The translations under genes were made by a program, and so were the position numbers. Below are positions 8,831 through 30,500 of a stretch of DNA of 64,000 nt, one piece after another. The DNA lies in assembly GCF_030817315.1 (NCBI RefSeq), contig NZ_JAUSZF010000001.1, positions 1,162,501 through 1,226,500 of the forward strand, in the 5' to 3' direction. Source of the stretch: Sphingomonas faeni. GTDB lineage: Bacteria > Pseudomonadota > Alphaproteobacteria > Sphingomonadales > Sphingomonadaceae. The notes beneath the pieces are model-generated. The model was not told the DNA's origin. It did no database searches and saw nothing but the letters and a program-made list of their open reading frames with translations. Within the stretch, counting starts at the first letter, position 1. Every line of letters starts with the position of its first letter.

Positions 8831-8862
8831 GCTGAATCGAGGAGTGAGAGTGGGTCGATCTT

Positions 8863-8985
8863 CCTCCCCCCTCCCTGAAAGGGAGGGGTCGGGGGTGGGT
8901 CGGCCTCCGCGCTGCGCAACGGTTCGGGCTCAAGCAGGCCTACCCACCCCCACCCCCTCCCTTTCAGGGAGGGGGGCAAGAAGAG
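8863..8985. repeat. paired REP-like palindrome between convergent genes
   Basis: Two facing hairpins, each with CCCTCCC and GGGAGGG arms around a TGAAA or TTTCA loop, flank a GGGGGTGGGT / ACCCACCCCC pair, so the whole block can fold as one large imperfect palindrome. It lies between the convergent phoX and merR genes and could end transcription from both sides. Confidence 0.75.
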
Positions 8986-8987
8986 GG

Positions 8988-9377
8988 TCAGTCGCCCGCG
9001 GGGATCCGAGCCAGCGCTTCCTGCTCGATCTTCTCCAGCTCATCGCGCGTCTGGACGATCGCCTCGCGTTGCGCATCCAGCAGGTCGATCCGCTGGCGAC
9101 AGCGTTCCGCCAGCGCGCGCATCTGCTCCACATGCTGGGGATCGGCGTCGTAGAGGTCGAGGAACTCCTCAATGTCGCGCAAGGTAAAACCCAGACGTTT
9201 ACCACGCAAAATCAGCTGCATCCGCGCGACTTCGCGCCGCGTGTAGACCCGTGTCGTGCCGATCCGGCAGGGCTCGATCAGCCCCTTGTCCTCATAGAAC
9301 CGTAGCGTCCGTGCGCTCACGCCGAGCATGCGCGAGACCTCCTGTATACCGGTCAGATCGTCCTGTCGGTCGTTCAC
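8988..9377 (-). CDS. MerR-family transcriptional regulator, LiuR-like
   Basis: A 129-residue cytosolic DNA-binding protein with an N-terminal MerR winged helix (GIQEVSRMLGVSARTLRFYEDKGLIEP, then RVYTRREVARMQLILRGKRLGFTL) and a C-terminal dimerisation coiled coil (about residues 85-120). There is no metal-binding cysteine array, so it belongs to the short MerR group that includes LiuR, regulators of branched-chain and fatty-acid breakdown. The start GTG 9377 overlaps the fadD stop (GTGA) with GGGGAG ahead of it. Co-transcription with fadD, and an inverted-repeat array in the divergent promoter, suggest it controls fadD and the thiolase/fadB operon. Its effector is probably an acyl-CoA (inference). 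Confidence 0.88.
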   Translation of the reverse strand: MNDRQDDLTGIQEVSRMLGVSARTLRFYEDKGLIEPCRIGTTRVYTRREVARMQLILRGKRLGFTLRDIEEFLDLYDADPQHVEQMRALAERCRQRIDLLDAQREAIVQTRDELEKIEQEALARIPAGD

Positions 9378-11092
9378 GCGTCCACTCCCCTCGCCTCCGA
9401 CGCTGCGGCCTTTGCGGCCTCTTCTGCGACAAGTTCCTTTTTGGATAGCTTGCCGATCAGCGTCTTGGGGAGACTGTCGCGGATTTCGACCTCGCGGGGA
9501 AGCTCGATCTTGCTGATCTTGTCGCGGAGAAAATCGCGCAGTTCGAGCGGGGTAGCCACCGCACCTTCCGCCAGCACGACGAACGCCTTGGGGGCCTGAC
9601 CGCGGTATTTGTCGGGCACGCCGATGACGACCGCTTCGAATACGGCCGGGTGTTCGTACAGCGCTTCCTCGATCACGCGCGGATAGACGTTGTAACCGCC
9701 GGCGAGGATCAGGTCCTTGATCCGGTCGACGATGAACAGATAGCCGTCCGCGTCGAGGTGCCCCACATCGCCGGTGCGCAGCGCGCCATCCGCGAACAGC
9801 TCGGCGGTGGCGGCGGGCTTGTGCCAATAGCCTTGCGTGATCTGGGGACCGCGCGCGCAGATCTCGCCATTCTCGCCGATCGGGAGCAGCCGGGTCGGGT
9901 CCTCGCGGTCGCGGATCTCGATCGTCGTCCCGGGGAACGGCAAGCCCGCCGAGCCCGGCTTGTTGAGCCCGCCGATCGGGTTGCAAGTGATGATCGGCGA
10001 GGCCTCGGACAGGCCATAGCCTTCGACGAGCTTCGCGCCGGTCGCCGTCTCGAACGCCACACGGACCTCGGCGGGGAGCGGTGCACCGCCCGAGATGCAC
10101 GCGTGGATCGAGGACAGGTCGATCTTCTGCGTCTCGGCGGCCGTGGTGATCGCCGCGTAGATCGTTGGTACCGCGGGGAAGTAGCTCGGCTTGGTGCGGT
10201 CGATCGTTTTGAGCAATTGCTGCAATTCGAAGCGCGGCAGCAGGATCATCTCGGCGCCGGTGCGGATCGAATAGGTCAGCACGGTGGTCAGCGCGAAGAC
10301 GTGGAACAGCGGCAGCGCGCCGAGCACGCGGTCCTGATGCGGCTGTTCGCCGCCGACGAACGTCACCATCGCATCGGCGTTCGCGACGAGATTGGCGTGG
10401 CTGAGCATCGCAGCCTTGGGCTCGCCGGTGGTCCCGCCGGTATATTGCAGCACCGCAACCTCGTCCGGGGATACGGCAACAGCAGCAGGCGCGCCCTTCG
10501 CCTTCAGCAGCGAGTCGAACGTGCAATGGCGTGCGTCGCTCGGGGCGTGTCCGATCTCGGCGCGCTTGAAGATGCGGTAGGCGATCGACTTCACCGTCGG
10601 CAGTGCGCCCGCGATCGGACAGGTGATGACGTGCTTGACGCCCATCTGGCCTGCGACCTTCAGGACGCGCGCGTGGATTTCGGCGATGTCGCAGGTGGCG
10701 ATGATCGTCGCGCCCGAATCCTCGAGCAGATGCGCCAGCTCGCGTTCGACATAGAGCGGGTTGACGTTGACGACGATGCCGCCGGCCTTGAGGATCGCGA
10801 AGAACAGGATCGGGTAATAGGGCGTGTTCGGCAGGCAGAGCGCCACGCGCGTGCCCTTTACTACACCAAGGTCCTGGAGCCCCTTCGCCGCCCGATCGAC
10901 CGACTCGCCGAGCCCGGCATAGGTCAGCGTCCGCCCCATGAAGTCGAGCACGTTGCGCGACCCGAACCGGCGGACCGACGTATCGAGCATGTCGCCCAGC
11001 AGGCGTGGCTCGCCCTGCAACGGTACGCCGATCGCCTTGCCCCCGGAAGTGTCCTGCATCTCGCTCTCCATTACTTGGTGTGCGTAAGCCAT
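9374..11092 (-). CDS. fadD: long-chain fatty acid-CoA ligase (FadD-like)
   Basis: ATP-dependent acyl-CoA ligase of the ANL superfamily that activates fatty acids at the inner membrane. The AMP-binding P-loop-like motif YTGGTTGEPKAAMLSH, the GYGLSEASP motif, TGDVGHLDADGYLFIVDR and the C-terminal KISKIELPREVEIRDSLPKTLIGKL with the catalytic lysine are all visible. Length is normal (572 aa from 11092). The start is uncertain: ATG 11059 has GGAG six bases ahead and gives 561 aa, whereas 11092 has only AAGGTGA further away. It is followed by the overlapping merR gene and diverges from thiolase/fadB, so it supplies acyl-CoA for that pathway. Confidence 0.92.
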   Translation of the reverse strand: MAYAHQVMESEMQDTSGGKAIGVPLQGEPRLLGDMLDTSVRRFGSRNVLDFMGRTLTYAGLGESVDRAAKGLQDLGVVKGTRVALCLPNTPYYPILFFAILKAGGIVVNVNPLYVERELAHLLEDSGATIIATCDIAEIHARVLKVAGQMGVKHVITCPIAGALPTVKSIAYRIFKRAEIGHAPSDARHCTFDSLLKAKGAPAAVAVSPDEVAVLQYTGGTTGEPKAAMLSHANLVANADAMVTFVGGEQPHQDRVLGALPLFHVFALTTVLTYSIRTGAEMILLPRFELQQLLKTIDRTKPSYFPAVPTIYAAITTAAETQKIDLSSIHACISGGAPLPAEVRVAFETATGAKLVEGYGLSEASPIITCNPIGGLNKPGSAGLPFPGTTIEIRDREDPTRLLPIGENGEICARGPQITQGYWHKPAATAELFADGALRTGDVGHLDADGYLFIVDRIKDLILAGGYNVYPRVIEEALYEHPAVFEAVVIGVPDKYRGQAPKAFVVLAEGAVATPLELRDFLRDKISKIELPREVEIRDSLPKTLIGKLSKKELVAEEAAKAAASEARGVDA

Positions 11093-11107
11093 ATTGTCGG
11101 CCGCTTC

Positions 11108-11138
11108 ACCTTGACGTAAAGGTGAGGTATCGCACCTT
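11108..11138. promoter_or_regulatory. operator candidate with three ACCTT/AAGGT half-sites
   Basis: ACCTT at 11108-11112, AAGGTG at 11119-11124 and CACCTT at 11133-11138 form two overlapping inverted repeats (spacers of 6 and 8 bases) that share the middle arm. A TTGACG at 11111-11116 could be a -35 box for the rightward genes. The position between fadD-merR and the thiolase gene fits binding by the MerR regulator encoded there. Confidence 0.55.
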
Positions 11139-11190
11139 AAGGGTAACCCGCAAGCGTTAACCGGGTCGACCGCAATATGAGAGGATCATC

Positions 11191-12327
11191 GTGACCAACG
11201 TCGTCATAGCCGGGTACGCCCGTTCGCCGTTCCACCTCGCCGGCAAGGGCGATCTCGCCCGCGTCCGTCCGGACGATCTCGCCGCACAGACGATTCGCGG
11301 ATTGCTCGACAAGACCGGCGTCGATCCCGCCGAGATCGAGGACATCATCCTCGGCTGCGCGTTTCCCGAGGGCGAGCAGGGCCTCAACGTCGCCAAGCTG
11401 ATCGCGCAGATCGCCGACCTGCCGATCTCGGTCGGTGGGATGACGGTCAACCGGTTCTGCGGCTCGTCGATGAGCGCGATCCACATCGCCTATGGCCAGA
11501 TCGCGGTCGGCGCGGGCGAGGCGTTCATCTGCGCGGGCCTCGAATCGATGAGCCGCGTGCCGATGGGCGGCTACAACCCCCTCCCCAACCCCGCGCTCGC
11601 GAAGAAGAGCGCCGGGGCGTACATGGGCATGGGCGAGACCGCGGAGAACGTCGCGCGCGACTACCAGATCACGCGCGCCGAACAGGACGCGTTCGCGGTG
11701 AAGAGCCAGGACAAGGCCGCCGCGGCGCGTGCCGATGGCCGCTTGTCCGACGAGATCGTGACGATCCAGACCAAGGCTGGCCCGGTCAGCCAGGACGGCA
11801 CGATCCGTGCCGGCACGACGACCGAAGCGCTCGCCGGCCTGAAGCCTGCGTTCAGCGCGGACGGTTCGGTGACCGCGGGTACGTCCTCGCCGCTGACCGA
11901 TGGTGCGTCCGCGGTGCTGGTCACCTCGGAGGAGTTCGCCAAGAAGCATGGGCTGACGATCCTCGCGCGGATCAAGTCGATCGGCGTGTCGGGTTGCGCG
12001 CCCGAGACGATGGGGCTCGGCCCGATCGGCGCGTCGAAGAAGGCGCTGGAGCGCGCCGGGATCACCGTCGCCGACCTCGACGTGGTCGAGATCAACGAGG
12101 CGTTCGCGAGCCAGGCGATCGCCTGCATCCGCGATCTCGGGCTGAAGGACGAAACGATCAACCTCGATGGCGGTGCGATCGCGATCGGCCATCCGCTCGG
12201 CGCGACTGGCGCGCGGATCGTCGGCAAGGCGGCTGCGCTGCTGTCGCGCGAGGGTGGGCGTTATGCGCTGGCAACGCAGTGCATTGGCGGCGGTCAAGGC
12301 ATCGCGACGGTGCTGGAGCGCGCATGA
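11191..12327 (+). CDS. fadA: acetyl-CoA C-acyltransferase (thiolase, FadA-like)
   Basis: Cytosolic thiolase (378 aa) that cleaves 3-ketoacyl-CoA with CoA, the last step of beta-oxidation. Catalytic residues are in place: Cys90 in the NRFCGSSM motif, the His of [16 protein letters not shown], and the second Cys of [18 protein letters not shown] is the usual NEAFA motif. The start is GTG 11191 with GAGAGG before it; no in-frame ATG nearby gives the conserved N-terminus. The stop overlaps the start of the next gene (ATGA), which encodes the other beta-oxidation activities, as in two-subunit trifunctional complexes. Confidence 0.93.
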
Positions 12328-14655
12328 TGGTCGATCAGGTCAAGAAGGTCTGCGTCATCGGCGCGGGCGTCATGGGTGCGGGCATTGCGGCACAGGTCGC
12401 CAATGCCGGTATCCCCGTGCTGTTGCTCGACATCGTACCGCGTGACCTGCCCGAGGGCGGCGACCGCGATGCGGTGGCCAAGGGCGCGGTCGCCAAGATG
12501 CTCAAGACCGACCCCGGCCCCCTTCATGTCGAAGCGTGCGGCCAAGCTGGTCGAGACGGGCAACATCGACGATCATCTCGATCGCGTCGCCGAGTGCGAC
12601 TGGATCGTCGAGGCGATCGTCGAACGGCTCGATATCAAGCAGGCGCTGTACGCCAAGCTGGAAGAGCTGAAGCGTCCCGGCACTGCGGTGTCGTCGAACA
12701 CCTCGACGATCCCGCTCGGCAACCTCGTCGGGGGGCGTTCGGACCAGTTCAAGGCCGACTTCCTCATCACGCACTTCTTCAACCCGCCGCGCTACATGCG
12801 GCTGGTCGAGATCGTCCGCGGCGAGCACACCGACATCGCGGTCGCCGAGAAGGTCGAGGATTTCGTCGATCGCTTCATGGGCAAGCGGATCGTCCGCGCG
12901 AAGGATACGCCAGGCTTCATCGCCAACCGCATCGGCACCTACTGGCTGGCGATCGCGATCAACGCGGCGATGGACCAGGGGCTGACCGTCGAGGAGGCCG
13001 ACCAGATCGGCGGTCGTCCGATGGGCGTGCCGAAGACTGGGATCTTTGGGCTCGTCGATCTGGTTGGTGTTGACCTGATGCCGTTGCTGTCGAAGAGCCT
13101 CTCCTCCACGCTGCCCGCGGGCGATCCGTATTTCGATACGCTCCGTCCGTTGCCGCTGGTCGACAAGATGATCGCGGAGGGGTTCACCGGCCGCAAGGGC
13201 AAGGGTGGTTTCTACCGGTTCGACAAGGCGACCCGGACCAAGCTGTCGCTCGACCTCGTGACCGGTGAGTATCGCGCCGAGGCCAAGCCGGCGGAGTTGC
13301 CTGGGAAGACCGGCAAGGACCTCGCCGCGCTGATCGCGGAGCCGGGCAAGATCGGCACCTATGCGTGGACGATTCTCGGCAGCGTGCTGTCCTACGCGGC
13401 GATGCTCGTCGGCGAAGCGGCGGACGATGTCGTCGCGATCGATGACGCGATGAAGCTCGGCTATAACTGGAAATACGGGCCGTTCGAGCTGATCGACCGG
13501 ATGGGGCCGGGCGTGCTCGCTGCGCGCCTCGCCGACGAAGTTCGCGATGTTCCTGCGATCCTGAAGACTGCGGGCGATCGTCCGTTCTACCGTGTCGAGA
13601 ACGGCCAGCGTCAGTATCTCACCGCGACGGGTGAATATGCGGACGTGCCGCGCGCGGACGGTGTCGAACTGCTGGAGGACATCAAGCTCCGCTCGCAGCC
13701 GATCCTGACGAACCTGTCGGCGTCGCTCTGGGATGTCGGCGACGGTATCGCGGCGCTGGAATTCCACACCAAGATGAACGCGCTCGACGACCAGGTCGTC
13801 GCATTGATCAACGAAGCGATCCCGGTGGTTCGCGAGCGCTTCAAGGCGCTGGTGGTGTATAACGAAGCGTCGAACTTCTCGGCGGGCGCGAACCTCGGTG
13901 CCGCGATGTTCGCGGTCGGGGCTGGCCTTTGGGACATGGTCGAGGCCAGCGTCGCGGGCGGGCAGCAGGCGTACAAGGCGCTCAAATACGCGCCCTTCCC
14001 GGTCGTCAGCGCACCGGCCGGGCTTGCGCTCGGCGGTGGATGCGAGATCCTGCTCCACTCCGACGCGGTGCAGGCGCATGCCGAGACCTATGCGGGGCTC
14101 GTCGAATGCGGCGTCGGTCTCGTCCCCGGCTGGGGTGGCAATGGCGAGATGCTCGACCGCTGGACCAAGTCGGGCATGGTGCCGAAGGGCCCGATGCCGG
14201 TGCTGACCAAGGTGTTCCAAGCGGTCTCCACCGCACAGGTCGCCAAGTCGGCGGCGGAGGGGAAGGAGATGATGATCCTGCGCAAGGACGACGGCATCAC
14301 CATGAACCGCGACCGCCTGCTGGCGGACGCGAAGGCCAAGGCGCTGTCGCTGGTCGATGGCTATGCGGCACCGGAGAAGCCGACCTTCCGTCTGGCTGGC
14401 GAGAGCGGCCGGACCGGGCTGAACATGGCGGTGGCGGACTTCCACAAGAAGGGCATGGCGACCGACTACGACCTCATCGTCGCGGATCGTCTCGCCGAGG
14501 TGCTGACAGGTGGCGAGGCCGATCTGATCGACACCGTGACCGAGGACCAGTTGCTCGACCTCGAGCGCGCGGCGTTCATGGCGAGCGTCAAGGATCCCCG
14601 GACCCAGGCGCGGGTCGTTCACATGCTGCAGACAGGCAAGCCGCTCCGGAACTGA
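12324..14655 (+). pseudogene. fadB: 3-hydroxyacyl-CoA dehydrogenase / enoyl-CoA hydratase (FadN/FadB type) with apparent one-base frameshift
   Basis: The product starts [22 protein letters not shown], a Rossmann NAD site at residues 13-18, in frame with ATG 12324. The family sequence then switches frame at the G/C run 12511-12525 and continues as [21 protein letters not shown] to 14655. Deleting one base restores a 776-residue protein. Downstream parts are intact: the dehydrogenase core ([31 protein letters not shown]) and a C-terminal crotonase domain (NFSAGANLG, GLALGGGCEI). This domain order, dehydrogenase first, is the FadN arrangement. It would oxidise 3-hydroxyacyl-CoA and hydrate enoyl-CoA. 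Real mutation or sequence error cannot be told apart here. Confidence 0.88.
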
Positions 14656-14660
14656 CCTGT

Positions 14661-14738
14661 TCCCCCGCGAACGCGGGGGCCCAGGATCAAGCAGCGCCGC
14701 GTTGGTTACCCTGGGTCCCCCGCCCGCGCGGGGGCCCA
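14661..14738. repeat. paired REP-like palindrome
   Basis: CCCCCGCG and CGCGGGGG hairpins occur twice in opposite orientation, each followed or preceded by GGCCCA / CCTGGGT arms. The element begins directly after the fadB stop and could serve as its terminator. Confidence 0.7.
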
Positions 14739-14822
14739 CCACGCTCGTGAACACTTTTTCACCCGCGGAATCAGTAAGAAGACTTGACTTGTCTTCGTAC
14801 AATTCTAGTCGAGACAAACAGC

Positions 14823-22027: not shown

Positions 22028-22149
22028 CCCTCTCCCTCGGGGAGAGGGAAAGGCGCGCAGCGCCGAGGGTGAGGGCACGCACAACATCAGCACGTGCCCT
22101 CACCCTTCCGCCGCGCAAGAGCACGTCTCCTCTATCTCCCCGGGGAGAG
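22028..22149. repeat. paired REP-like palindrome between hppD and hmgA
   Basis: Outer hairpins of CTCTCCC / GGGAGAG type lie at both ends, and a perfect 14-base inverted repeat (AGGGTGAGGGCACG at 22066-22079 with its complement at 22093-22106) lies inside. It separates two genes of one pathway and could lower hmgA expression relative to hppD or hold a separate promoter. Confidence 0.7.
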
Positions 22150-22215
22150 GAACAGAAAGAGTTTGAACGGCCGGCGGTTCGGGCGTTGATCGGAACAGGT
22201 GACGGAGAGGAAGCC

Positions 22216-23541
22216 ATGACAATTCACCAGCCGACCAATGCCGCAGGCGAGACCGCCGGCCAGACTGAGTATTTGCCCGGCTTCGGAAATCACGTTTCCA
22301 CAGAGGCCATCCCCGGCGCCCTGCCGATCGGCCGCAATTCGCCGCAGCGACCGGCGTTCGGCCTTTATACCGAGCAGCTCTCCGGCACCGCCTTCACTGC
22401 GCCCCGCCACGAGAACCGCCGCAGCTGGCTCTACCGGATGCGCCCGACCGCCGAGCATCCGCCGTTCGAGCGCTACGCCGGCGCCAAGCGGTTCGCGCCC
22501 GGCACCACCGACGCGCCGCTCGCGCCCAACCGCCTGCGCTGGGACCCCGTCGAGTCCCCCGCCTCGAAAACCGACCTGATCGACGGTATGACGACGATGC
22601 TCGTCAACCGCGATCCCGCCGATCTCGAAGGCGTCGCGCTCCACGTCTACGCCGCCAATACCGACATGACCGACCGAGTGTTCATGGATGCGGACGGCGA
22701 ATTGCTGTTCGTCCCGCAGAAAGGACGGGTGCGATTGCTGACCGAACTCGGCCGCATCGACATCGCCCCCGGCCAGATCGCGCTCGTCCCGCGCGGTGTC
22801 CGGTTTCGCGCCGAAATGCCCGATGGCGAAGCACGCGGCTATGTCGCGGAGAACCACGGTGCGCTGTTCCGCCTGCCCGATCTCGGCCCGATCGGGGCCA
22901 ATGGTCTCGCCAACCCCCGCGATTTCGAAACGCCGGTCGCGTGGTTCGAAGACCGCGACGAGCCGGTCGAGGTCGTCCAGAAGTTCATGGGATCGCTGTG
23001 GACTACCACGCTCGATCACTCGCCGCTCGACGTCGTCGCGTGGCACGGCAACCTCGCGCCTTGGCGGTATGACCTGTCGCAGTTCAACACGATCAACACG
23101 GTCAGTTTCGATCATCCCGACCCGTCGATCTTCACGCTGCTGACCTCGCCAAGCGACGTGCCGGGCCGCGCGAACGCCGATTTCGTGATCTTCCCGCCGC
23201 GCTGGATGGTCGCAGAGGGTACGTTCCGCCCGCCATGGTTCCACCGCAACGTCATGTCCGAAGCGATGGGCCTGATCACCGGTGCTTACGACGCGAAGGC
23301 CGAGGGGTTCGCGCCCGGCGGGATCTCGCTGCACAACCTGATGTCGGGCCACGGGCCGGACCTGGCGAGCTGGCAGGGCGCTAGCGCGGCGGACCTGAAG
23401 CCCCACAAGATCGACGGCACGATGGCATTCATGCTGGAGAGCTGCTGGCCGTACGCGCCGACCGCCTACGCGCTCGAACATTCGCAGCTCGATTACGACG
23501 CGGTCTGGTCGGATTTCCCGAAGGCGGTCCTCCCGAAGTGA
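22216..23541 (+). CDS. hmgA: homogentisate 1,2-dioxygenase
   Basis: A 441-residue Fe(II) dioxygenase that opens the homogentisate ring to maleylacetoacetate. Family blocks include [24 protein letters not shown], the cupin-like barrel, [44 protein letters not shown] and [15 protein letters not shown], which hold the His and Glu iron ligands. ATG 22216 is chosen because GGAGAGGAAGCC precedes it and the conserved N-terminus follows; the frame is open further upstream through the repeat. The stop overlaps the GTG of maiA (GTGA). Confidence 0.96.
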
Positions 23542-24182
23542 GCCTCACGCTACACGGCTATTGGCGCTCGACCACGGCCTACCGGGTCCGGATCGCACTG
23601 GCCCTGAAGGGCGTCGCTTACGAGCGGGTTGCGCACGATCTCCGCACCGGCGCGCAACGCGAGCCCGAGTATCGGACGCTCAATCCGCAGGGGCTCGTTC
23701 CGACACTGGAAACCGACGATGCAGTCCTGACGCAGAGCCCTGCGATCCTGGAATGGATCGACGAGGTGTATCCCGACCCACCGTTGCTTCCTGTCGGTGC
23801 GAACGACCGGGCGATCGTCCGCGCGATCGCCGCGACGATCGCATGCGACATTCATCCGGTGAACAACCTCCGCATCCTGAACGCCTTGCGGACGGAGTTC
23901 GGGGCGGACGAGGCAGCGGTAAACCGCTGGATCGTACGCTGGATCGGCGACGGATTCGCGGCGCTGGAGACGCTGATCGCGCGGCACGGCGACGGCTTCG
24001 CGTTCGGTCCGACGCCGACGATCGCCGACTGTCATCTGGTGCCGCAGGTCTATTCGGCCGAGCGGTTCGCGGTCGATCTCTCGCCCTATCCGCATCTTAT
24101 GAGCGCCGCCGACAAGGCGCGCGCCCTCCCCGCCTTTGCCGCCGCGCATCCCGACCGGCAGCCGGACGCCGACCGCGCATGA
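23538..24182 (+). CDS. maiA: maleylacetoacetate isomerase
   Basis: A 214-residue zeta-class glutathione transferase that isomerises maleylacetoacetate to fumarylacetoacetate with glutathione. The N-terminal thioredoxin-like domain has the zeta signature [17 protein letters not shown], and [24 protein letters not shown] binds glutathione. The start is GTG 23538, overlapping the hmgA stop; the end overlaps the ATG of the Rieske gene. Position directly after hmgA makes the assignment secure. Confidence 0.94.
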
Positions 24183-24598: not shown

Positions 24599-25564
24599 AT
24601 GACCGAAACCCTCCCCATCCGCGTCGTGGCGCTGTACCGCTTCACGCCGTTTGCCGACATCGCCGCGATCCAGCCGCCGCTTGCGCTCGTGTGCTGTTCG
24701 AACGGGGTGAAGGGTACGCTGCTGCTCGCCGCCGAGGGGATCAACGGGACGATCGCCGGGTCCAAAGAAGGAATCGACGCGGTGCTCGTGCATATCCGCG
24801 CACTGCCGGGGTGCGCCGATCTCGATGTGAAGGAGTCTCGCGCCGCGGAGATGCCGTTCCACCGGATGAAGGTGCGGCTGAAGCGCGAGATCGTGACGAT
24901 GGGCGAGCCTTCGATCGATCCGCTGGAGGGCGTCGGGCATTATGTCGAGCCGGCGGACTGGAACGCGTTGATCGCCGAGCCGGGGACGATCGTGATCGAT
25001 ACACGGAACGATTACGAAGTCGCAGTCGGCACGTTCGCCGGCGCGGTCGATCCACAGACGCGGACGTTCCGGGACTTTCCCGCGTGGTTTCGCGAGCACC
25101 GCGACGAGCTGGTCGGGGACGGCCCGCCGCCGAAGATCGCGATGTTCTGCACCGGGGGCATCCGCTGCGAGAAGTCGACCGCGTTCCTGAAGGCCGAGGG
25201 GCTCGACGAGGTGTATCACCTCAAGGGCGGCATCCTGAAGTATCTGGAGACCGTGCCCGAGGCGGAGAGCCTTTGGGAAGGGGAGTGTTTCGTATTCGAT
25301 CAGCGGGTTGCGGTTGGACATGGGCTTGCGTTGGGAAGTCATGTGCTGTGCCATGCCTGCCGGATGCCGGTGAGCGTCGCAGATCGGTCGTCGCCGCTGT
25401 ATGTCGAGGGGGTGAGTTGCCCGGCGTGTCATGACGCGCGGGACGAGACGCAGCGGGCGGGCTATGCCGAGCGTGAGCGGCAGATGCGGCTGGCTGAGAC
25501 TCGGGGCGAGGCACACGTCGGGGCGGTGTTACCGAAGACGCATGGGGCGGACGACACCCCCTAG
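24599..25564 (+). CDS. trhO: oxygen-dependent tRNA uridine(34) hydroxylase (TrhO/YceA), rhodanese-like
   Basis: A 321-residue protein with an N-terminal ferredoxin-like domain (ALYRFTPF...GINGTIAG) and a rhodanese domain whose active loop is CTGGIRC (Cys184 and Cys190), both characteristic of TrhO, which installs 5-hydroxyuridine at position 34 of certain tRNAs. The C-terminal part has paired CHAC and CPAC cysteines likely to bind a metal. The N-terminus [15 protein letters not shown] fits the family. It is separated from the homogentisate operon by 54 bases and ends next to a perfect inverted repeat. Confidence 0.93.
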
Positions 25565-25577
25565 ACGACCACTGACG

Positions 25578-25682
25578 TCCACCCCGGCGAAGGCCGGGGC
25601 CCAATTGGGGGACGGCAATAACAATGCGCCGTCCTTCGTTACTGCGACCTCCCAATTGGGCCCCGGCCTTCGCCGGGGTGGA
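25578..25682. repeat. perfect 32-base inverted repeat (REP pair)
   Basis: The arm at 25578-25609 recurs exactly as its reverse complement at 25651-25682, 41 bases apart. Each arm itself folds (CCCCGGC-GAAG-GCCGGGG core) and ends in the palindrome CCCAATTGGG. It lies between the convergent trhO and ankyrin genes and may be a bidirectional terminator. Confidence 0.85.
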
Positions 25683-25694
25683 AGCTCTCGGTTG

Positions 25695-26210
25695 CTAGGC
25701 TGAAAACCGCGCCGCCAATGCCGCATTACCTTGCGATACCGCCAGCGAGTGCACGCTATTCCCCGCCGCATCGACGATCGCTGGGTCCGCGCCGTGCTCC
25801 AGCAACAGGTCGATGATCGCCGTCCGGTCCACCAGCGCCGCCAACATCAACGCGGTCTGTCCCACGCCATTGCGCCGGTTCACGTCCGCGCCAGCATCGA
25901 TCAGGATCTGCGCGATCTCGGCATAGCCCTTGAAGCAGACGCCCATCAACGCGGTGTTGCCGCGCGCGTCCGCGGTGCCGTCGACCTGCGCGCCTGCCGC
26001 GAGCAAGGCCGCGGTGGCTTCGGCCTGGCCGTTGTAGCTCGCGATCACCAACGGCGTGTAGCCCTTCGCGTCGGTCACCTCGATATCGACGCCCGCCTGC
26101 AACAGCGCCGGTATCATCTCGTCGCGCCCCGTCCGCGCCGCGTCGAACATCAGCTCGACCAGCCGTTCCATCGGCGGCAACGGGGGCAGCTCACGCGCGT
26201 CAGTCATCAT
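25695..26210 (-). CDS. ankyrin-repeat protein
   Basis: A 171-residue protein made almost wholly of ankyrin repeats, with repeat signatures DAKGYTPLVIASYNGQAEATAALLAAGAQVD, DARGNTALMGVCFKGYAEIAQILIDAGADVN and GVGQTALMLAALVDRTAIIDLLLEHGADP, about four to five repeats from residue 17 on (listed here separately; each is one unit). No signal peptide. It begins 11 bases inside the end of the glutathionylspermidine-synthase-like gene, so it is the last gene of the leftward yjf-type operon and likely a protein-protein adaptor in that system. It is not part of the E. coli yjf cluster. Confidence 0.9.
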   Translation of the reverse strand: MMTDARELPPLPPMERLVELMFDAARTGRDEMIPALLQAGVDIEVTDAKGYTPLVIASYNGQAEATAALLAAGAQVDGTADARGNTALMGVCFKGYAEIAQILIDAGADVNRRNGVGQTALMLAALVDRTAIIDLLLEHGADPAIVDAAGNSVHSLAVSQGNAALAARFSA

Positions 26211-27369
26211 TCGCCTCGATGATATGCGGCACGAACCGCGCGAGATTGCGCGTCACGACCGTTTCATCTTCCCGAACGCCGATCCCCGCGGGTTCGTTGC
26301 CGACCATCCACGCGCCGATCACCGGATGCCGCCCGTCGAACACGGGTGGAGGCGCATAGGCCTGGCGGATCGCACCCTCGGCACCATAGCCCTGATCGAG
26401 CACCGTGTGGCCGCTTTCGCCGATCACCTCGACGTTGGCGCCCTCGCGCGAGAACAGCGGTTTTCTCACATATTTCGGGCCGAGGATCTTCGCGGCGGAA
26501 TCGTCGTCGAAGAACGCCGGCAGCAGGTTCGGATGCTCGGGATGCCGCTCCCACAACAACGGCAGGATGCCCTTGTTCGACAGGATCGACTTCCACGCCG
26601 GCTCGATCCAGCGCACGTCGGCGCGTGACAGGTTCGGCGCATAGGGCTCGCGGAGCATGAACTCCCACGGATACAGCTTGAACGCGGCCTGCACCTCGAA
26701 CCCGTCGGTGTCGATGAAGCGCCCGTCGGCGGCGAGGCCGATATCCTTCATCTCGACGAACTTCGGTTCGATCCCGACCTGCGATGCAAGGTCCTCGAAG
26801 AACCGCACCGTCTGGCGGTCTTCGATCGCGCTCGCATCCGCCGCGAAATGGACGAAACCGCCGCTCGGGAACAGTGCGCGAAACCGCTCGCGCAATTTGT
26901 CGAACAGGCTGTTGAACTGATCCGTCCCCGCCGGCAACGCACCGCTGGCTAGCAGATCCTCGAGCCACATCCACTGGAACGTCGCGCACTCGAACACCGA
27001 CGTCGGCGTGTCGGCATTATACTCGTAGAGCTTGGCCGGTCCGGTGCCGTCATAGGCGAAATCGAACCGCCCGTAGAGCGAAGGCTGGCGCGTCCGCCAC
27101 GTCTCCGCGACGTAGTTCCACTGCTCGCGCGGGATCGCGAGACGTTCCATCAGCTGCTGGTCGCGGACCACCTCGTCGACCAGATCGAGGCACATCGCGT
27201 GCAGCTGTTCCGCCGCCGGTTCGAGGTCGTCCTCGATCTCCGCCAGCGTGAAGGCATACGCCGCGCCCTCATCCCAATAGGGTTCGCCATCCGTGTCGTG
27301 ATAGACGAACCCGATCGCGTCGGCCCGATCGCGCCAGTCGCCGCGCGGGTCTACCGCGATCCGGCGCAT
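26200..27369 (-). CDS. yjfC: glutathionylspermidine synthase-like ATP-grasp protein (YjfC family)
   Basis: A 389-residue protein matching only the synthetase half of Gss; there is no amidase domain. Recognisable parts are the N-terminal YWDEGAAYAF, the central KLYEYNADTPTSVFE, DLASQVGIEPKFVEM, and the C-terminal KYVRKPLFSREGANVEV and GAWMVGNEPAGIGVREDE, the ATP-grasp core. Gss joins glutathione to spermidine; for YjfC-type proteins the real substrate has not been shown to my knowledge. ATG 27369 shares one base with the stop of the pspA-like gene (TGATG). Same operon order as in E. coli relative to YjfJ is approximate. Confidence 0.88.
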   Translation of the reverse strand: MRRIAVDPRGDWRDRADAIGFVYHDTDGEPYWDEGAAYAFTLAEIEDDLEPAAEQLHAMCLDLVDEVVRDQQLMERLAIPREQWNYVAETWRTRQPSLYGRFDFAYDGTGPAKLYEYNADTPTSVFECATFQWMWLEDLLASGALPAGTDQFNSLFDKLRERFRALFPSGGFVHFAADASAIEDRQTVRFFEDLASQVGIEPKFVEMKDIGLAADGRFIDTDGFEVQAAFKLYPWEFMLREPYAPNLSRADVRWIEPAWKSILSNKGILPLLWERHPEHPNLLPAFFDDDSAAKILGPKYVRKPLFSREGANVEVIGESGHTVLDQGYGAEGAIRQAYAPPPVFDGRHPVIGAWMVGNEPAGIGVREDETVVTRNLARFVPHIIEANDD

Positions 27370-28115
27370 CAGGAGTCCGACGTCTTGTCGTCGCGCTGCT
27401 CGATCTGCAGCGTCTGGCCGACTTGCGGCGTCTTTGGTGCGGTCAGGCGCGCAAGCACGTCGTCCGCCGAGGACTGGCCCGGCCCGATGCCCGCCAGCCG
27501 CAGCTTCTCGTCGAGATCGGCGCCGGTGCGACGATCTTCCAACTCGCCGGCCGCCTTGATCCGCTCGCCGCGGATTGCTTGCCGCTCGCGAATACGCGCG
27601 AGGCTGTCGGCTGCCGAGCCGAGCTTGTTGCCCGCGCCCATGCTGCCCGACGCGACCGAGGCCTGCGCCTTCTGCACCGACTCGTTGACCTTCACGACAT
27701 CCACTTCGCGACGAAGCTGTTCGATCTTGCGGTCGGTCTGCGCGACGGCAGTGTGGATCTGCTCCTCTGCGGCGCGCATGTCCTCGACCTGCGGGGTCTT
27801 CAGCGCAATGTCCTGTTCGAGATCGGCGATCCGCTGCGCTACCTGGCGCGCGAGATCCATGTTGCCCTTCTCGACCGCGATACGTGCCGAAGCCTCGTAC
27901 TTCGCGGCCTGGGCGCGGAAGCTCTCGACCTCGGTTTCAAGGATGCGGCGACGCGCGACGAGCCCCGCGAGATCGTCGCGCGCCTTGCCCTGCGCCTTGT
28001 CGGCGTCGCGAATTTCCTGGTCGAGGATGCGTAGCGCGTTCGCGTCGACGACCGCCGAACCCGCTTCGTGCGCGCCGGCACGACCGAGGGTGAAAAGCTT
28101 GCTCCAGATGGCCAT
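27369..28115 (-). CDS. yjfJ: PspA/IM30 family protein (YjfJ-like)
   Basis: A 248-residue, mostly helical PspA/Vipp1-type protein: N-terminal amphipathic helix MAIWSKLFTLGRAGAHEA, then a long coiled coil (about residues 25-150) with LETEVESFRAQAAKYEASARIAVEKG and a Gly/Ser break before a C-terminal helix. Family members bind and remodel the inner membrane under stress, related to ESCRT-III. The pspBC regulators of the classical phage-shock operon are absent here; instead the gene is between DUF2170 and YjfC genes, as in the E. coli yjf cluster. Confidence 0.9.
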   Translation of the reverse strand: MAIWSKLFTLGRAGAHEAGSAVVDANALRILDQEIRDADKAQGKARDDLAGLVARRRILETEVESFRAQAAKYEASARIAVEKGNMDLARQVAQRIADLEQDIALKTPQVEDMRAAEEQIHTAVAQTDRKIEQLRREVDVVKVNESVQKAQASVASGSMGAGNKLGSAADSLARIRERQAIRGERIKAAGELEDRRTGADLDEKLRLAGIGPGQSSADDVLARLTAPKTPQVGQTLQIEQRDDKTSDS

Positions 28116-28139
28116 GCCAGTCTCTCCGTTTGTATCAGT

Positions 28140-28574
28140 TCAGGCGGCAGGAACCTGCGCGTGGCGCAAATCCGTAGCCGCATCGATCGCATTCTCGGCG
28201 AGCGTGCGCAGTTCGATGATCACGGTATCGAGCCGGCTCGACGTCGCGAGTTCGCCGAACAGCTCGTAATAATCGCGGCCATCGACGGTCCCGATCCCGA
28301 AGTTCGACAGCGGCACCAGCTTCTGCGATTTCAGCAGGAAGGTGTTGAACGCCAATTGGTCCTCCTGCTCGTCGCACGGCCACAGCAGGGTCGAGCAGGC
28401 GATCTGCACCTCGCTCACGTTTACGAACAGCTCGAGGTCGCCGTGATGGTGCATCGTCACCAGCAATACCGGGTCCGCGCCTTCCAGGATCCGCGCGGTG
28501 AATTCGCCGGCTTTCGCAGGCTCGGACGTGTCGAGCGCGGCCTTCAGGCTGCGGACGGTCCAGATGTCGGTCAA
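28140..28574 (-). CDS. yjfI: DUF2170 family protein (YjfI-like)
   Basis: A 144-residue cytosolic protein containing VTMHHHGDLELFVNVSEVQIACSTLLWP and FNTFLLKSQKLVPLSNFGI, which I match to DUF2170/YjfI. The most likely start is TTG 28574 because GGGAG lies 9 bases before it and the family-like N-terminus (TDIWTVRSLKAAL) follows; the frame stays open upstream through a repeat, without a plausible ATG. It is the first gene of the leftward operon, 24 bases ahead of the PspA-like gene. Function unknown. Confidence 0.8.
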   Translation of the reverse strand: MTDIWTVRSLKAALDTSEPAKAGEFTARILEGADPVLLVTMHHHGDLELFVNVSEVQIACSTLLWPCDEQEDQLAFNTFLLKSQKLVPLSNFGIGTVDGRDYYELFGELATSSRLDTVIIELRTLAENAIDAATDLRHAQVPAA

Positions 28575-28660
28575 TGCAAGAACTCCCGTGCTTGTCGCTC
28601 GTGGAGACACATAGGCGTTTCGCGAGCGCCTGCCACCCTCCCCACGTCCTCTTCCTTCCG

Positions 28661-28738
28661 TCATCCTGACGAAAGTCAGGACCCAGAGCCACAAGCCCCG
28701 TCCTCCGTTACCCTGGGTCCTGACTTTCGTCAGGATGA
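28661..28738. repeat. perfect 26-base inverted repeat (REP pair) in the divergent yjf promoter region
   Basis: The arm at 28661-28686 recurs as an exact reverse complement at 28713-28738, with 26 bases between. Each arm has an inner CCTGAC-GAAA-GTCAGG hairpin. It lies between the start of the DUF2170 gene (28574) and the DUF2491 gene (28832), so transcripts in one or both directions may begin beside it. Confidence 0.85.
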
Positions 28739-28831
28739 TGGAGTTGAAGGGATGTCGACACTCGATCGTGCTTTGCGAGCTCCCCGGCTTTGCCCTATGA
28801 GGCACGCCAACAACACACACGCGAGGATTGC

Positions 28832-29473
28832 ATGTTCGATCGCCTGTTCGGCCGCAAGCCAGCGCTTGACGGCAACGCCCTGCCCGTCGTCCGCAATGTC
28901 ACCCTAGGCCGCACGGTCACGGTCGATCCGCTGGCATGGCGGCGGTTCGGATCGGAACTGCTGTTCCCGTTCGACCGCGACACGCTGGTGATCGTCGCAC
29001 AGGGGCTCGTCGACCTCAACGAAGGCGGCTTCGTCCACCGGTTCTATACCGACGACGACATCATGTTCCAGGCGGTGTCGAACGATCGCGACGGGCAGGA
29101 CGTCACGGATGTCACGCTGTTCGCACCGTGGGACAGTGCCTACCCGTCGTCCGCTGCCGAGCGTCCTGCTTGGAAGAGCCGCCTGAAGGCGCGCACCTTC
29201 ACCGCCGAAGGGCTGCCGGAATATAGCCGTTCGTGGTTCGGTCCCGAAGCGAGCGAGCAGGACCCGGTGACGTTCTGGGAGGAATTGCACGACGACCGCG
29301 ACGGCATCGTCGACCGCCGCATCTTCCAGACCTGCATGCTGTTCAGCCGCGACCTGCCGGGCGACGATGGCCGCGAACTGCTGCTCGCGATCGACATGGA
29401 GAACGAGGCGGGCGAGGTCTCGTTCGAGATCATGCTGGGCGTGGCACTGGAACTCGGCGAGTTCAGGGCCTAG
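28832..29473 (+). CDS. yjfK: DUF2491 family protein (YjfK-like)
   Basis: A 213-residue protein without signal or membrane segment, beginning MFDRLFGRKPALDGNALPVV and containing AQGLVDLNEGGFVHRFYTDDD and RSWFGPEASEQDPVTFWEEL, which I match to DUF2491/YjfK. ATG 28832 follows GCGAGGA; the open frame upstream (to 28790) lacks a ribosome site. It is the first gene of a rightward operon with the DUF350 and DUF1190 genes, and is divergent from the DUF2170/PspA genes. No biochemical role is known to me. Confidence 0.85.
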   Translation: MFDRLFGRKPALDGNALPVVRNVTLGRTVTVDPLAWRRFGSELLFPFDRDTLVIVAQGLVDLNEGGFVHRFYTDDDIMFQAVSNDRDGQDVTDVTLFAPWDSAYPSSAAERPAWKSRLKARTFTAEGLPEYSRSWFGPEASEQDPVTFWEELHDDRDGIVDRRIFQTCMLFSRDLPGDDGRELLLAIDMENEAGEVSFEIMLGVALELGEFRA

Positions 29474-29505
29474 CATCCGCCACGAACGGCTCCGGGGGAA
29501 ATGCC

Positions 29506-29919
29506 ATGATCGACCAATACAGCTTCGGCGCCAGCGTGCTCGCCTTCCTGATCGCGTTCGTCGCGGCGGGGGCGTTCACGATCGTGTTCAAGATCATATT
29601 TCAGGCGACGACGCCGTATCACGAGAAATCGCTGATCCGCGAAGGCAATACCGCCGCCGCGATCACGCTGGGCGCGGCGCTGCTCGGGTACGTCCTTCCG
29701 TTGGCGTCGGCACTAACGCATACCGTCACGCTGCTCGAATTCGCGATCTGGGCGTTGGTCGCGGGCGTGATCCAGATCGTCGCCGCGCTCGTCGTGCGGC
29801 GGCTGGTGATGCGCGACATCCACGACCGGATCGTCCGTGGCGACATCGCCGCGGCGACCTATATGGGGAGCATCTCGCTGTGCGTCGGCATCCTCAACGC
29901 CGCGTGCATGACGAACTGA
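29506..29919 (+). CDS. yjfL: DUF350 membrane protein (YjfL-like)
   Basis: A 137-residue inner-membrane protein with four predicted membrane helices: about residues 7-30 (SVLAFLIAFVAAGAFTIVF), 50-72, 80-100 and 115-135. The conserved REGNTAAAITLGAALLGY block is the DUF350 signature, present as two internal halves (compare RGDIAAATYMGSISLCVGI). GGGGGAAATGCC precedes ATG 29506. Middle gene of the yjfK-L-M set; likely the membrane anchor or channel partner of the module (inference). Confidence 0.87.
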   Translation: MIDQYSFGASVLAFLIAFVAAGAFTIVFKIIFQATTPYHEKSLIREGNTAAAITLGAALLGYVLPLASALTHTVTLLEFAIWALVAGVIQIVAALVVRRLVMRDIHDRIVRGDIAAATYMGSISLCVGILNAACMTN

Positions 29920-29930
29920 GAGGCATAGCG

Positions 29931-30500
29931 ATGAAGCGTTCCAGATCTATCGTCCTCACCAGCCTGATCGCAGGCTCGGGTATTTCATTGACCGCCTGCG
30001 ACGGCGATGTCGGCGGCAAACCCGTCGAGGCGCAGAGCTATGCATCGGTACAGGAGTGCCGCGCGGCCGGCGCGCTGTCGGCGGTGCAATGCGACACCGC
30101 GTTCGAGCAGGCCAAGGCCGATGCCGCGAAGACCGCGCCACGGTTCCAGGATCGGCAGACTTGCGAAGAGCAATACGGCGCCGCGCAGTGCGAGCCGCGC
30201 AACAACGGCAGCGGCGGGAGCTTCTTTACGCCGCTGCTGACCGGCTTCCTCGTCGGGCAGGCGCTCAACGGCGGCTTCGGCAATCGCGGCGCACCGATGT
30301 ACCGCGACCGCAACGGTAATTACTATGGCGGCGCAGGTGGCCGCATCAATCGCGACTATGTCACAGGCCGAACGCGCGTAGGCTCCGATGCCTTCACGCC
30401 AACCACCGCGAGAGCCCCTGCCCGAGTCCAGTCGCGCAGTTCGGTCATCTCGCGCGGTGGATTCGGTGGCGGCTTTGGTGGCCGCAGCTTCGGGGGGTAA
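29931..30500 (+). CDS. yjfM: DUF1190 lipoprotein (YjfM-like)
   Basis: A 189-residue protein with a lipoprotein signal (SGISLTAC, lipid Cys at residue 23). The DUF1190 region has spaced cysteines (YASVQECRAAG, AVQCDTAFEQA, DRQTCEEQYG, AQCEPRNN) likely forming disulfides, then a glycine-rich tail with a GGGFGGRSFGG end. ATG 29931 is 12 bases after the DUF350 stop. In E. coli YjfM has the same neighbours. Probably acts in the periplasm at the inner or outer membrane. Confidence 0.87.
   Translation: MKRSRSIVLTSLIAGSGISLTACDGDVGGKPVEAQSYASVQECRAAGALSAVQCDTAFEQAKADAAKTAPRFQDRQTCEEQYGAAQCEPRNNGSGGSFFTPLLTGFLVGQALNGGFGNRGAPMYRDRNGNYYGGAGGRINRDYVTGRTRVGSDAFTPTTARAPARVQSRSSVISRGGFGGGFGGRSFGG

Follow-up and report, generated by a model that had tools for sequence, protein, structure and literature searches.

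Why would a membrane-stress operon carry an enzyme of polyamine chemistry, and what does that enzyme modify? The question is raised by a locus of Sphingomonas faeni at positions 25,695 to 30,500 of the stretch of DNA that we analysed (64,000 nucleotides of contig NZ_JAUSZF010000001.1, positions 1,162,501 to 1,226,500; hereafter the window). The locus encodes all six protein families of the Escherichia coli yjfIJKLMC cluster, among them YjfC, a stand-alone ATP-grasp ligase, and YjfM, a DUF1190 lipoprotein. We found that YjfM ends in a conserved tail, which a first-pass annotation of the locus had overlooked, and that the tail and the ligase are genetically linked. The minimal unit, which is new here, consists of two genes, one for the ligase and one for a tailed envelope protein. 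Sequence comparisons suggest that the ligase probably joins a polyamine to the C-terminal carboxylate of the YjfM tail. Three features of the window are central to this proposal:

26200..27369, minus strand: yjfC, YjfC/YgiC-type stand-alone ATP-grasp ligase of 389 amino acids (Pfam GSP_synth, 2.3e-143); predicted polyamine ligase for the YjfM tail
29931..30500, plus strand: yjfM, DUF1190 lipoprotein of 189 amino acids (Pfam DUF1190, 3.2e-36); predicted ligase substrate
30450..30497, plus strand: C-terminal tail of YjfM, SRGGFGGGFGGRSFGG; predicted recognition core RGGFG and acceptor C-terminal Gly

YjfM ends in a conserved Gly-rich tail

The C-terminus that recurs in DUF1190 proteins consists of RGGFG, a short Gly/Ser/Arg linker and then (F/Y/W)GG. 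In YjfM of the window the core occupies residues 175–179 and the chain ends in FGG (SRGGFG...SFGG-COOH). An alignment of 54 DUF1190 proteins revealed that the lipobox Cys23, four further cysteines (Cys43, 54, 78 and 87), P101, G177, G179 and G188 are invariant, and that R175, F178 and G189 are kept in at least 90% of the sequences. Across 57 aligned proteins the chain stops 8–26 residues past the core Phe, in 53 of them at G. When one tail was taken per genus (n = 53; one chance pick, L116, was corrected), the last residue was G or S in 50 and the end was GG in 41, and the last 25 residues were free of Asp and Glu in 40. Because these acidic residues are mostly missing, the C-terminus is usually the only carboxylate in the tail end. 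E. coli YjfM and YgiB, which end in GHWGG and SRSMGG, have tail-like ends as in YjfM of the window.

In an AlphaFold2 (AF2) model of YjfM the folded part spans approximately residues 31–155, and residues 165–183 and 185–189 have a predicted local distance difference test (pLDDT) score below 50; the tail is thus disordered in the model. The central hydrophobic stretch of YjfM was considered as a membrane helix that would place the tail in the cytoplasm, and was rejected: AF2 predicts strands there, and the best 19-residue hydropathy is 1.09. Two Sphingomonadales tail open reading frames (ORFs), at L219 4375-5001 and L247 8580-8954, end in FGSIHA, not GG, and lie directly at the ligase start.

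Tails accompany stand-alone ligases in bacterial genomes

We examined the association in a sample of 397 genomes of the phylum, in which DUF1190 was found in 72 and the ligase family PF03738 in 101. The 115 PF03738 rows, less 14 fused enzymes and one fragment, left 100 stand-alone ligase loci, in 96 genomes. A strict rule (tail core, G or S end and Gly/Ser content, in an ORF within 5.5 kb of the ligase) picked an ORF at 75 of the 100 loci and matched none of 8,376 background ORFs. The strict pick at L167 is a chance ORF; the true tail there lies 5.2 kb from the ligase. Inspection by eye accepted three strict picks of lower Gly/Ser content and 13 relaxed picks as genuine, which brought the count to 90 of 100. 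The automatic choice was a chance ORF at L120, L121, L137, L139 and L175, and no ORF was picked at L123, L126, L187 and L189; genuine tails with RQGF, RRGL, GFGAT or a T end were found at L120, L121, L123, L126, L137 and L139. With core and end variants included, partly by eye, and L167 counted, a tail lies near 97 of the 100 stand-alone ligases. The ligases of two loci at which no tail was found, L175 and L189, are distant members of the family (277 and 227 bits). The genomes of L187 (G237) and L189 (G361) each carry two PF03738 ligases, one with a tailed partner and the other without.

DUF1190-type genes were split by linkage within loci L084–L159. The core was present in 68 of the 71 ligase-linked genes, and 65 of these 68 end in G or S; one further linked gene, at L138, has a YGFG core that the search expression missed, and the remaining two come from L150, where they lack a tail themselves and accompany a tailed copy. 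By comparison, an RGGFG-type core was found in none of seven DUF1190-like proteins away from a ligase. L150 itself has three DUF1190-like genes at one ligase locus (7840-11600), with the tail only on the copy upstream of the ligase. Nor is the tail confined to DUF1190 bodies: among 30 fetched ligase loci without a Pfam DUF1190 match, 27 had the same kind of tail on another body, including a Bradyrhizobium-type protein, VSRGGFGSFGHGFSGGG, a Pseudomonas-type protein, LVTRGGFGHSGARFSGGG, and others (taxon labels guessed from gene content). The DUF1190 cut-off was passed by four of ten scanned tail proteins and failed by six. At the 95 loci with an automatic tail, the tail gene precedes the ligase on the same strand in 81, follows it in 7 and has the opposite strand in 7 (ligase inside the piece; the picks at L116 and L167 are chance ORFs). 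In the Bradyrhizobium-like genome of L167, the tailed gene is not adjoining the ligase (8023-9183 and 14359-14748).

A model built from the tail only gave a second view of the same association. It matched 30 of the 397 genomes at E ≤ 0.01; 25 of these carry a ligase, in every case within 4.4 kb of the match. Matches thus occurred in 25 of 101 ligase genomes vs 5 of 296 others (Fisher p 5.5e-12), and the YjfM tail of the window was the best match among all 397 genomes (8.0e-10). We rejected the matches in the five genomes without PF03738: those in G132, G207 and G375 lie early inside longer frames, that in G179 lies 7 residues before the end of a frame of 53 amino acids, and that in G172, which ends a 105-amino-acid frame opposite one of 452, is probably spurious.

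Among 80 fetched named relative loci, 68 pass the strict core, the G or S end and at least 8 Gly/Ser in the last 25 residues. The 12 misses include two short contigs (L025 and L033), three loci with RGGFG...SNGG under the Gly/Ser limit (L065, L066 and L068), and L053 (FGGFG...GGGGS), L032 (ends YGA), L067 (RQGFG) and L064 (RGGFG, with the end VRA), together with three Methylobacterium loci (L045, L050 and L061) that have GLGG, GFGG or GFGA and then HHGGGG. A tail ORF was present in seven of seven Sphingomonadales stand-alone loci searched later, with the core variants SAGFG (G510), RGGWG (G486) and RGGLG (G471) and with an HA end in G482. The full strict rule found no tail at the 14 loci of the fused glutathionylspermidine enzyme GspSA. 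A loose expression had three matches there, a single ORF at each of L191, L193 and L195 (66–118 amino acids), none of them tail-like; the one in L191 passed the strict core without the Gly/Ser condition, as 1 of 1,426 ORFs.

The ligase retains catalytic positions and has an altered glutathione pocket

The solved chains closest to YjfC of the window are E. coli YgiC (7uk8, 1.2e-125) and YjfC (7uk6, 1.4e-115), members of the same enzyme family that match it over nearly the whole length. As the first-pass annotation had stated, the amidase half is missing: the protein, of 389 residues, covers the full GSP_synth domain (profile 1–371). Both the 98 stand-alone and the 14 fused enzymes keep the residues aligned to GspSA R316, D318, E330, N332, E392, K498, K533 and R598; in the alignment, R101, D103, E116, N118, K266, K303 and R366 of the window ligase correspond to R316, D318, E330, N332, K498, K533 and R598. 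In GspSA these are catalytic positions, on the ATP/Mg and the polyamine side. The glutathione pocket is different: GspSA SAS (335–337) is replaced by TPT, and TWA (441–443) by LYP, in at least 96% of the 98 stand-alone loci. In the window ligase T121-P122-T123 stands in place of S335-A336-S337, and the SASC motif of the GspSA pocket is absent. Catalytic positions are retained and the pocket is altered, and the near-invariance of the TPT/LYP replacement fits one shared carboxyl substrate other than glutathione. GspSA belongs to the same synthetase fold family and is a relative whose ATP/Mg and polyamine-side positions the window ligase keeps; it differs in its fused amidase half, its glutathione-pocket residues and the lack of a tail protein at its 14 loci.

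In RefSeq, E. coli YjfC and YgiC carry the name peptide--spermidine ligase. The title of Pederick et al. 2023 gives peptide-spermidine ligase activity for the E. coli enzymes, and a published table lists YgiC as without glutathionylspermidine synthase activity. The earlier suggestion that the product may not be glutathionylspermidine was therefore right, and its description of the chemistry as not known is outdated. Relative to these peptide-spermidine ligases, our proposal for the window differs in having a genetically encoded protein substrate and, probably, homospermidine as the amine. The literature that we searched names no natural substrate of the stand-alone ligases. No description of the tail appeared among the literature matches listed; Pederick 2023, Sui 2012 and Iyer 2009 fall outside them and may contain one.

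The pair is found in phages and on plasmids

Ligase matches were found in 138 of 50,697 phage records, and we opened 12 phage-collection loci and 11 plasmid loci. Clear tails lie near the phage-collection ligases of 44RR2.8t, Acj61, Kimel, LAh_8, Motura, Phosso, vB_OspM_OC (which ends in AG) and L208, and Straboviridae and jumbo phages are among the ligase neighbourhoods with a tail. In DSS3_VP1 a tail lies in a frame at the opposite end of the record. All seven phage proteins scanned against PHROGs are listed there as of unknown function. Clear tails were also seen at plasmid loci of Rhodobacter, Sulfitobacter, Nocardia (RGGL), Arthrobacter, Acinetobacter indicus, Rhizobium etli (RQGF), Tistrella and S. 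parapaucimobilis (ends HA).

Three of the phage-collection records have features of their own. L208, filed as a contig of Acinetobacter phage MD-2021a, resembles bacterial chromosome (mpl, guanine deaminase and hpt). In DSS3_VP1 (L205 5183-5503 and L235 1-421) an unannotated DUF1190-like gene apparently spans the record ends directly after the ligase, and its tail is encoded in the part at the start of the record. In Aeromonas phage LAh_8 (L215 4001-5209) the ligase is annotated as two adjacent coding sequences, beside a tailed DUF1190 gene.

A proposed C-terminal polyamination and its alternatives

We propose that the locus is a YjfIJKLMC-type envelope-stress module arranged around an enzyme–substrate pair, YjfC and YjfM. 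YjfC would bind the disordered tail of YjfM, with its RGGFG core, flexible Gly/Ser/Arg linker and terminal Gly-Gly, activate the terminal carboxylate with ATP and form an amide to a polyamine. The amine would be spermidine in E. coli and probably homospermidine in the Sphingomonas of the window, and the product would be an envelope lipoprotein with a polyamine at the tip of a tail that is basic already. Ligation would probably be cytoplasmic, before or during export, and modified YjfM may act at the stressed membrane together with the PspA-like and DUF350 proteins and, where one is encoded, the K+ channel. What the tip would do is speculation, with lipid or lipopolysaccharide (LPS) binding and channel block as candidates: as a tethered polyamine, the cationic tail may bind anionic lipid or LPS, or it may block a neighbouring K+ channel or DUF350 pore.

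Homospermidine is the main polyamine of Sphingomonas. The genome of the window gave no match to an S-adenosylmethionine (AdoMet) decarboxylase and has one deoxyhypusine-synthase homologue (8.4e-88), and for these reasons homospermidine is probably the amine. The deoxyhypusine-synthase family can, according to the accessible part of a published account, act as homospermidine synthase in bacteria. The same genome had no match to the Motura-type homospermidine synthase, a weak test, or to Sacchrp_dh_C.

Extended to the family, we lean towards the view that YgiC/YjfC-type enzymes are dedicated to the polyamination of protein C-termini. They would be a bacterial counterpart of ubiquitin-like Gly-Gly activation that needs one enzyme and no E1. 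A portable RGGFG...GG tag on envelope lipoproteins would be capped with spermidine or homospermidine, and Straboviridae and jumbo phages would have carried off both tag and enzyme. The nearest precedents come from elsewhere. In eukaryotes, the available text of PMC12270671 describes the joining of the C-terminal Gly-Gly of SUMO and ubiquitin to spermidine with ATP; there E1/E2 enzymes act on a folded modifier, whereas the proposed system has one ATP-grasp enzyme and a disordered envelope-protein tail. In PEARLs (peptide aminoacyl-tRNA ligases), as the available part of PMC10979984 presents them, a group is added to the C-terminus of a ribosomal scaffold peptide; these differ in using an aminoacyl-tRNA donor and in belonging to a natural-product pathway. 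If the proposal is right, C-terminal polyamination, which we have otherwise met only for SUMO and ubiquitin in eukaryotes (PMC12270671), would occur in bacteria and phages, and the presence of polyamine chemistry inside a PspA membrane-stress operon would be explained. The conserved ribosomal tail suggests a candidate natural substrate, also in E. coli K-12 (YgiB and YjfM).

Several observations weigh against this proposal. The count of 97 of 100 includes variants accepted partly by eye, and relaxing the automatic rule lets in 28 of 8,376 background ORFs; the tail search of the 100 stand-alone loci found none at L175, L187 and L189. Because no more than 19 candidates were scored per genome, the tail-only model is insensitive and found 25 of the 101 ligase genomes. 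In the window itself, yjfC and yjfM lie on opposite strands, 2.6 kb apart. Some tails finish in E, T, HS, HA or VRA; phages KoPa-4 and PhiW-14 and Bacillus phage FADO have degenerate Gly/Ser ends only, as do the Brevibacillus and Leptolyngbya plasmid loci in having just a Gly/Ser-rich end, and at the Azospirillum plasmid locus (L224) a tail was not found. The most serious difficulty is topological. The tailed proteins resemble lipoproteins or single-span membrane proteins, and a membrane proteome counts YgiB among the lipoproteins, so that the tail should end outside the cytoplasm; AF2 does not predict a second membrane helix in YjfM. With lipobox or single-span N-termini placing the tail outside and a ligase that needs ATP, modification before export must be assumed.

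The tail could instead be a docking or regulatory handle that recruits the ligase to the membrane or switches it on, the true substrate being a small peptide or metabolite. We consider this unlikely. It is in keeping with the RefSeq description of the E. coli enzymes as peptide-spermidine ligases, a membrane-anchored tailed protein could position the enzyme, and the last residue varies (G, S, T, E or A), though the core varies too. A handle does not need a fixed C-terminal end, yet the chain stops at a limited distance past the core Phe and nearly always at G; acidic residues are rare in the tail; and a handle would be on the wrong side of the membrane, the same difficulty that a substrate faces.

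A soluble peptide–polyamine conjugate, made for instance from a proteolytic tail fragment, with the DUF1190 protein as precursor and the conjugate as a signal or membrane stabilizer, seems improbable to us. Such a product fits the reported activity on short peptides, and ribosomal precursors with C-terminal peptide modification exist, as the accessible part of PMC10979984 shows for PEARLs. However, no protease was noticed as a constant neighbour of the pair, albeit without a systematic protease search, in E. coli ygiB-ygiC is found by itself between tolC and ygiD, and DUF1190 bodies keep the invariant lipobox Cys and four other Cys, unlike a leader peptide. We give very little credence to the idea that the tail serves sorting or the cell surface and is unrelated to the ligase, with the shared operon and the coupling due to a common envelope-stress function. 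The six-gene operon is indeed a PspA-linked stress module in the accessible text of Ravi et al. 2024 (PMC11237479), and yjfIJKL were strongly up in heat-evolved E. coli in a 2025 paper that was available in part. Against such a coupling, the other partners vary while tail and ligase persist, the seven DUF1190-like proteins without a ligase have no tail, and in phages and Actinomycetota the tail recurs near ligases on other bodies. Our preferred reading remains that the tail is polyaminated at its C-terminus.

The module and its neighbourhood

The six-gene module is already described. The 'third group' of Ravi et al. 2024 (PMC11237479), in the part of the paper available, comprises DUF2170 (CesT/Tir-like), PspA, a GspS-like ATP-grasp ligase, a K+ channel, DUF350, DUF1190 and DUF2491; the C-terminal tail is unmentioned in that part. 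The DUF2170–PspA dyad, GSP_synth, DUF350, DUF1190 and DUF2491 all occur in the window, and no K+ channel is encoded among the seven genes of its two arms. The channel appears optional, because the E. coli yjf cluster is also without one. The E. coli cluster has the same six families, one to one; the window differs in its two divergent arms, ank-yjfC-yjfJ-yjfI leftward and yjfK-yjfL-yjfM rightward, and in its ankyrin gene. All seven ORFs are open, and in addition to yjfC and yjfM the locus contains:

25695..26210, minus strand: ank, ankyrin-repeat protein of 171 amino acids (Pfam Ank_2, 1.5e-25); last gene of the left arm
27369..28115, minus strand: yjfJ, PspA/IM30 family, 248 amino acids (Pfam PspA_IM30, 5.4e-53)
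28140..~28574, minus strand: yjfI, DUF2170 (CesT/Tir-like; BacA relative) (Pfam DUF2170, 1.7e-44)
28657..28742, no strand: inverted repeat in the divergent intergenic gap, 30-nucleotide arms, 97% complementary, resembling a repetitive extragenic palindrome (REP)
28832..29473, plus strand: yjfK, DUF2491, 213 amino acids, compact and beta-rich (Pfam DUF2491, 6.9e-52; AF2 mean pLDDT 90)
29506..29919, plus strand: yjfL, DUF350 membrane protein of 137 amino acids (Pfam DUF350, 2.5e-34)

The ankyrin repeats and all six yjf families exceed the Pfam gathering cut-offs. The co-occurrence of the six at one locus, the DUF2170, DUF2491 and DUF1190 assignments and the envelope/polyamine reading of the first-pass annotation hold. 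Its description of the module as rearranged into divergent operons holds relative to E. coli only. Among the 80 named loci, 34 share the divergent order (Sphingomonas, Caulobacter, Phenylobacterium, Brevundimonas and Roseibium/Labrenzia), 16 have the collinear I-J-K-L-M-C order and the remaining 30 have fewer genes or are cut by contig ends. We thus ruled out the divergent layout as a special feature; it is common in Alphaproteobacteria. The ankyrin gene was likewise ruled out as a core component: it occurs in 22 of 24 Sphingomonas-type named loci (missing in L023 and L024) and nowhere else among the 80, and is a clade-specific accessory outside the conserved system.

The expected conservation of the neighbourhood in Sphingomonadales was borne out in part. 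PF03738 is found in 11 of 147 Sphingomonadales genomes, two of them with fused enzymes by open-frame length, so that the distribution is patchy. The full six-gene set is present in four of the nine stand-alone loci (the window, L115, L246 and L250), with a different order in L250 (C-M-L-K on one strand and I-J on the other); profile searches found C alone, C-M or C-M-L at the other five, and the ankyrin gene is not part of what is conserved. YjfC is the sole PF03738 match in its genome.

In the left arm, the overlaps of yjfC with ank (11 bases) and with yjfJ (one base) are consistent with a single leftward operon. The yjfI gene has a TTG start; its start codon is uncertain and alternatives are possible. 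YjfI scored 1.3e-34 against the NCBIfam BacA model, under the cut-off of the model. The bac operon of Pseudomonas aeruginosa encodes a DUF2170 protein, BacA, whose structure is chaperone-like according to the accessible portion of the paper on it. A sigma-54 promoter has been reported for that operon; one between the two arms of the window locus was rejected, as the gap has no match and the window has 52 matches vs 57.7 expected. A fold search of the PDB with the YjfM and YjfK models gave no match at E ≤ 0.001.

A second, different REP-like inverted repeat lies at 25578-25682 (45-nucleotide arms, 89% complementary); together with the repeat at 28657-28742, which is inside the divergent promoter gap, it flanks the left arm. 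Three flanking genes were identified by Pfam as encoding a GST, a pyridine nucleotide-disulphide oxidoreductase and a UPF0176/rhodanese protein. The last of these, with a UPF0176 N-terminal and a rhodanese domain, lies at 24599-25564, adjoining the left arm, and is presumably TrhO-like. The frames at 22069-24182 look to us like homogentisate 1,2-dioxygenase and maleylacetoacetate isomerase.

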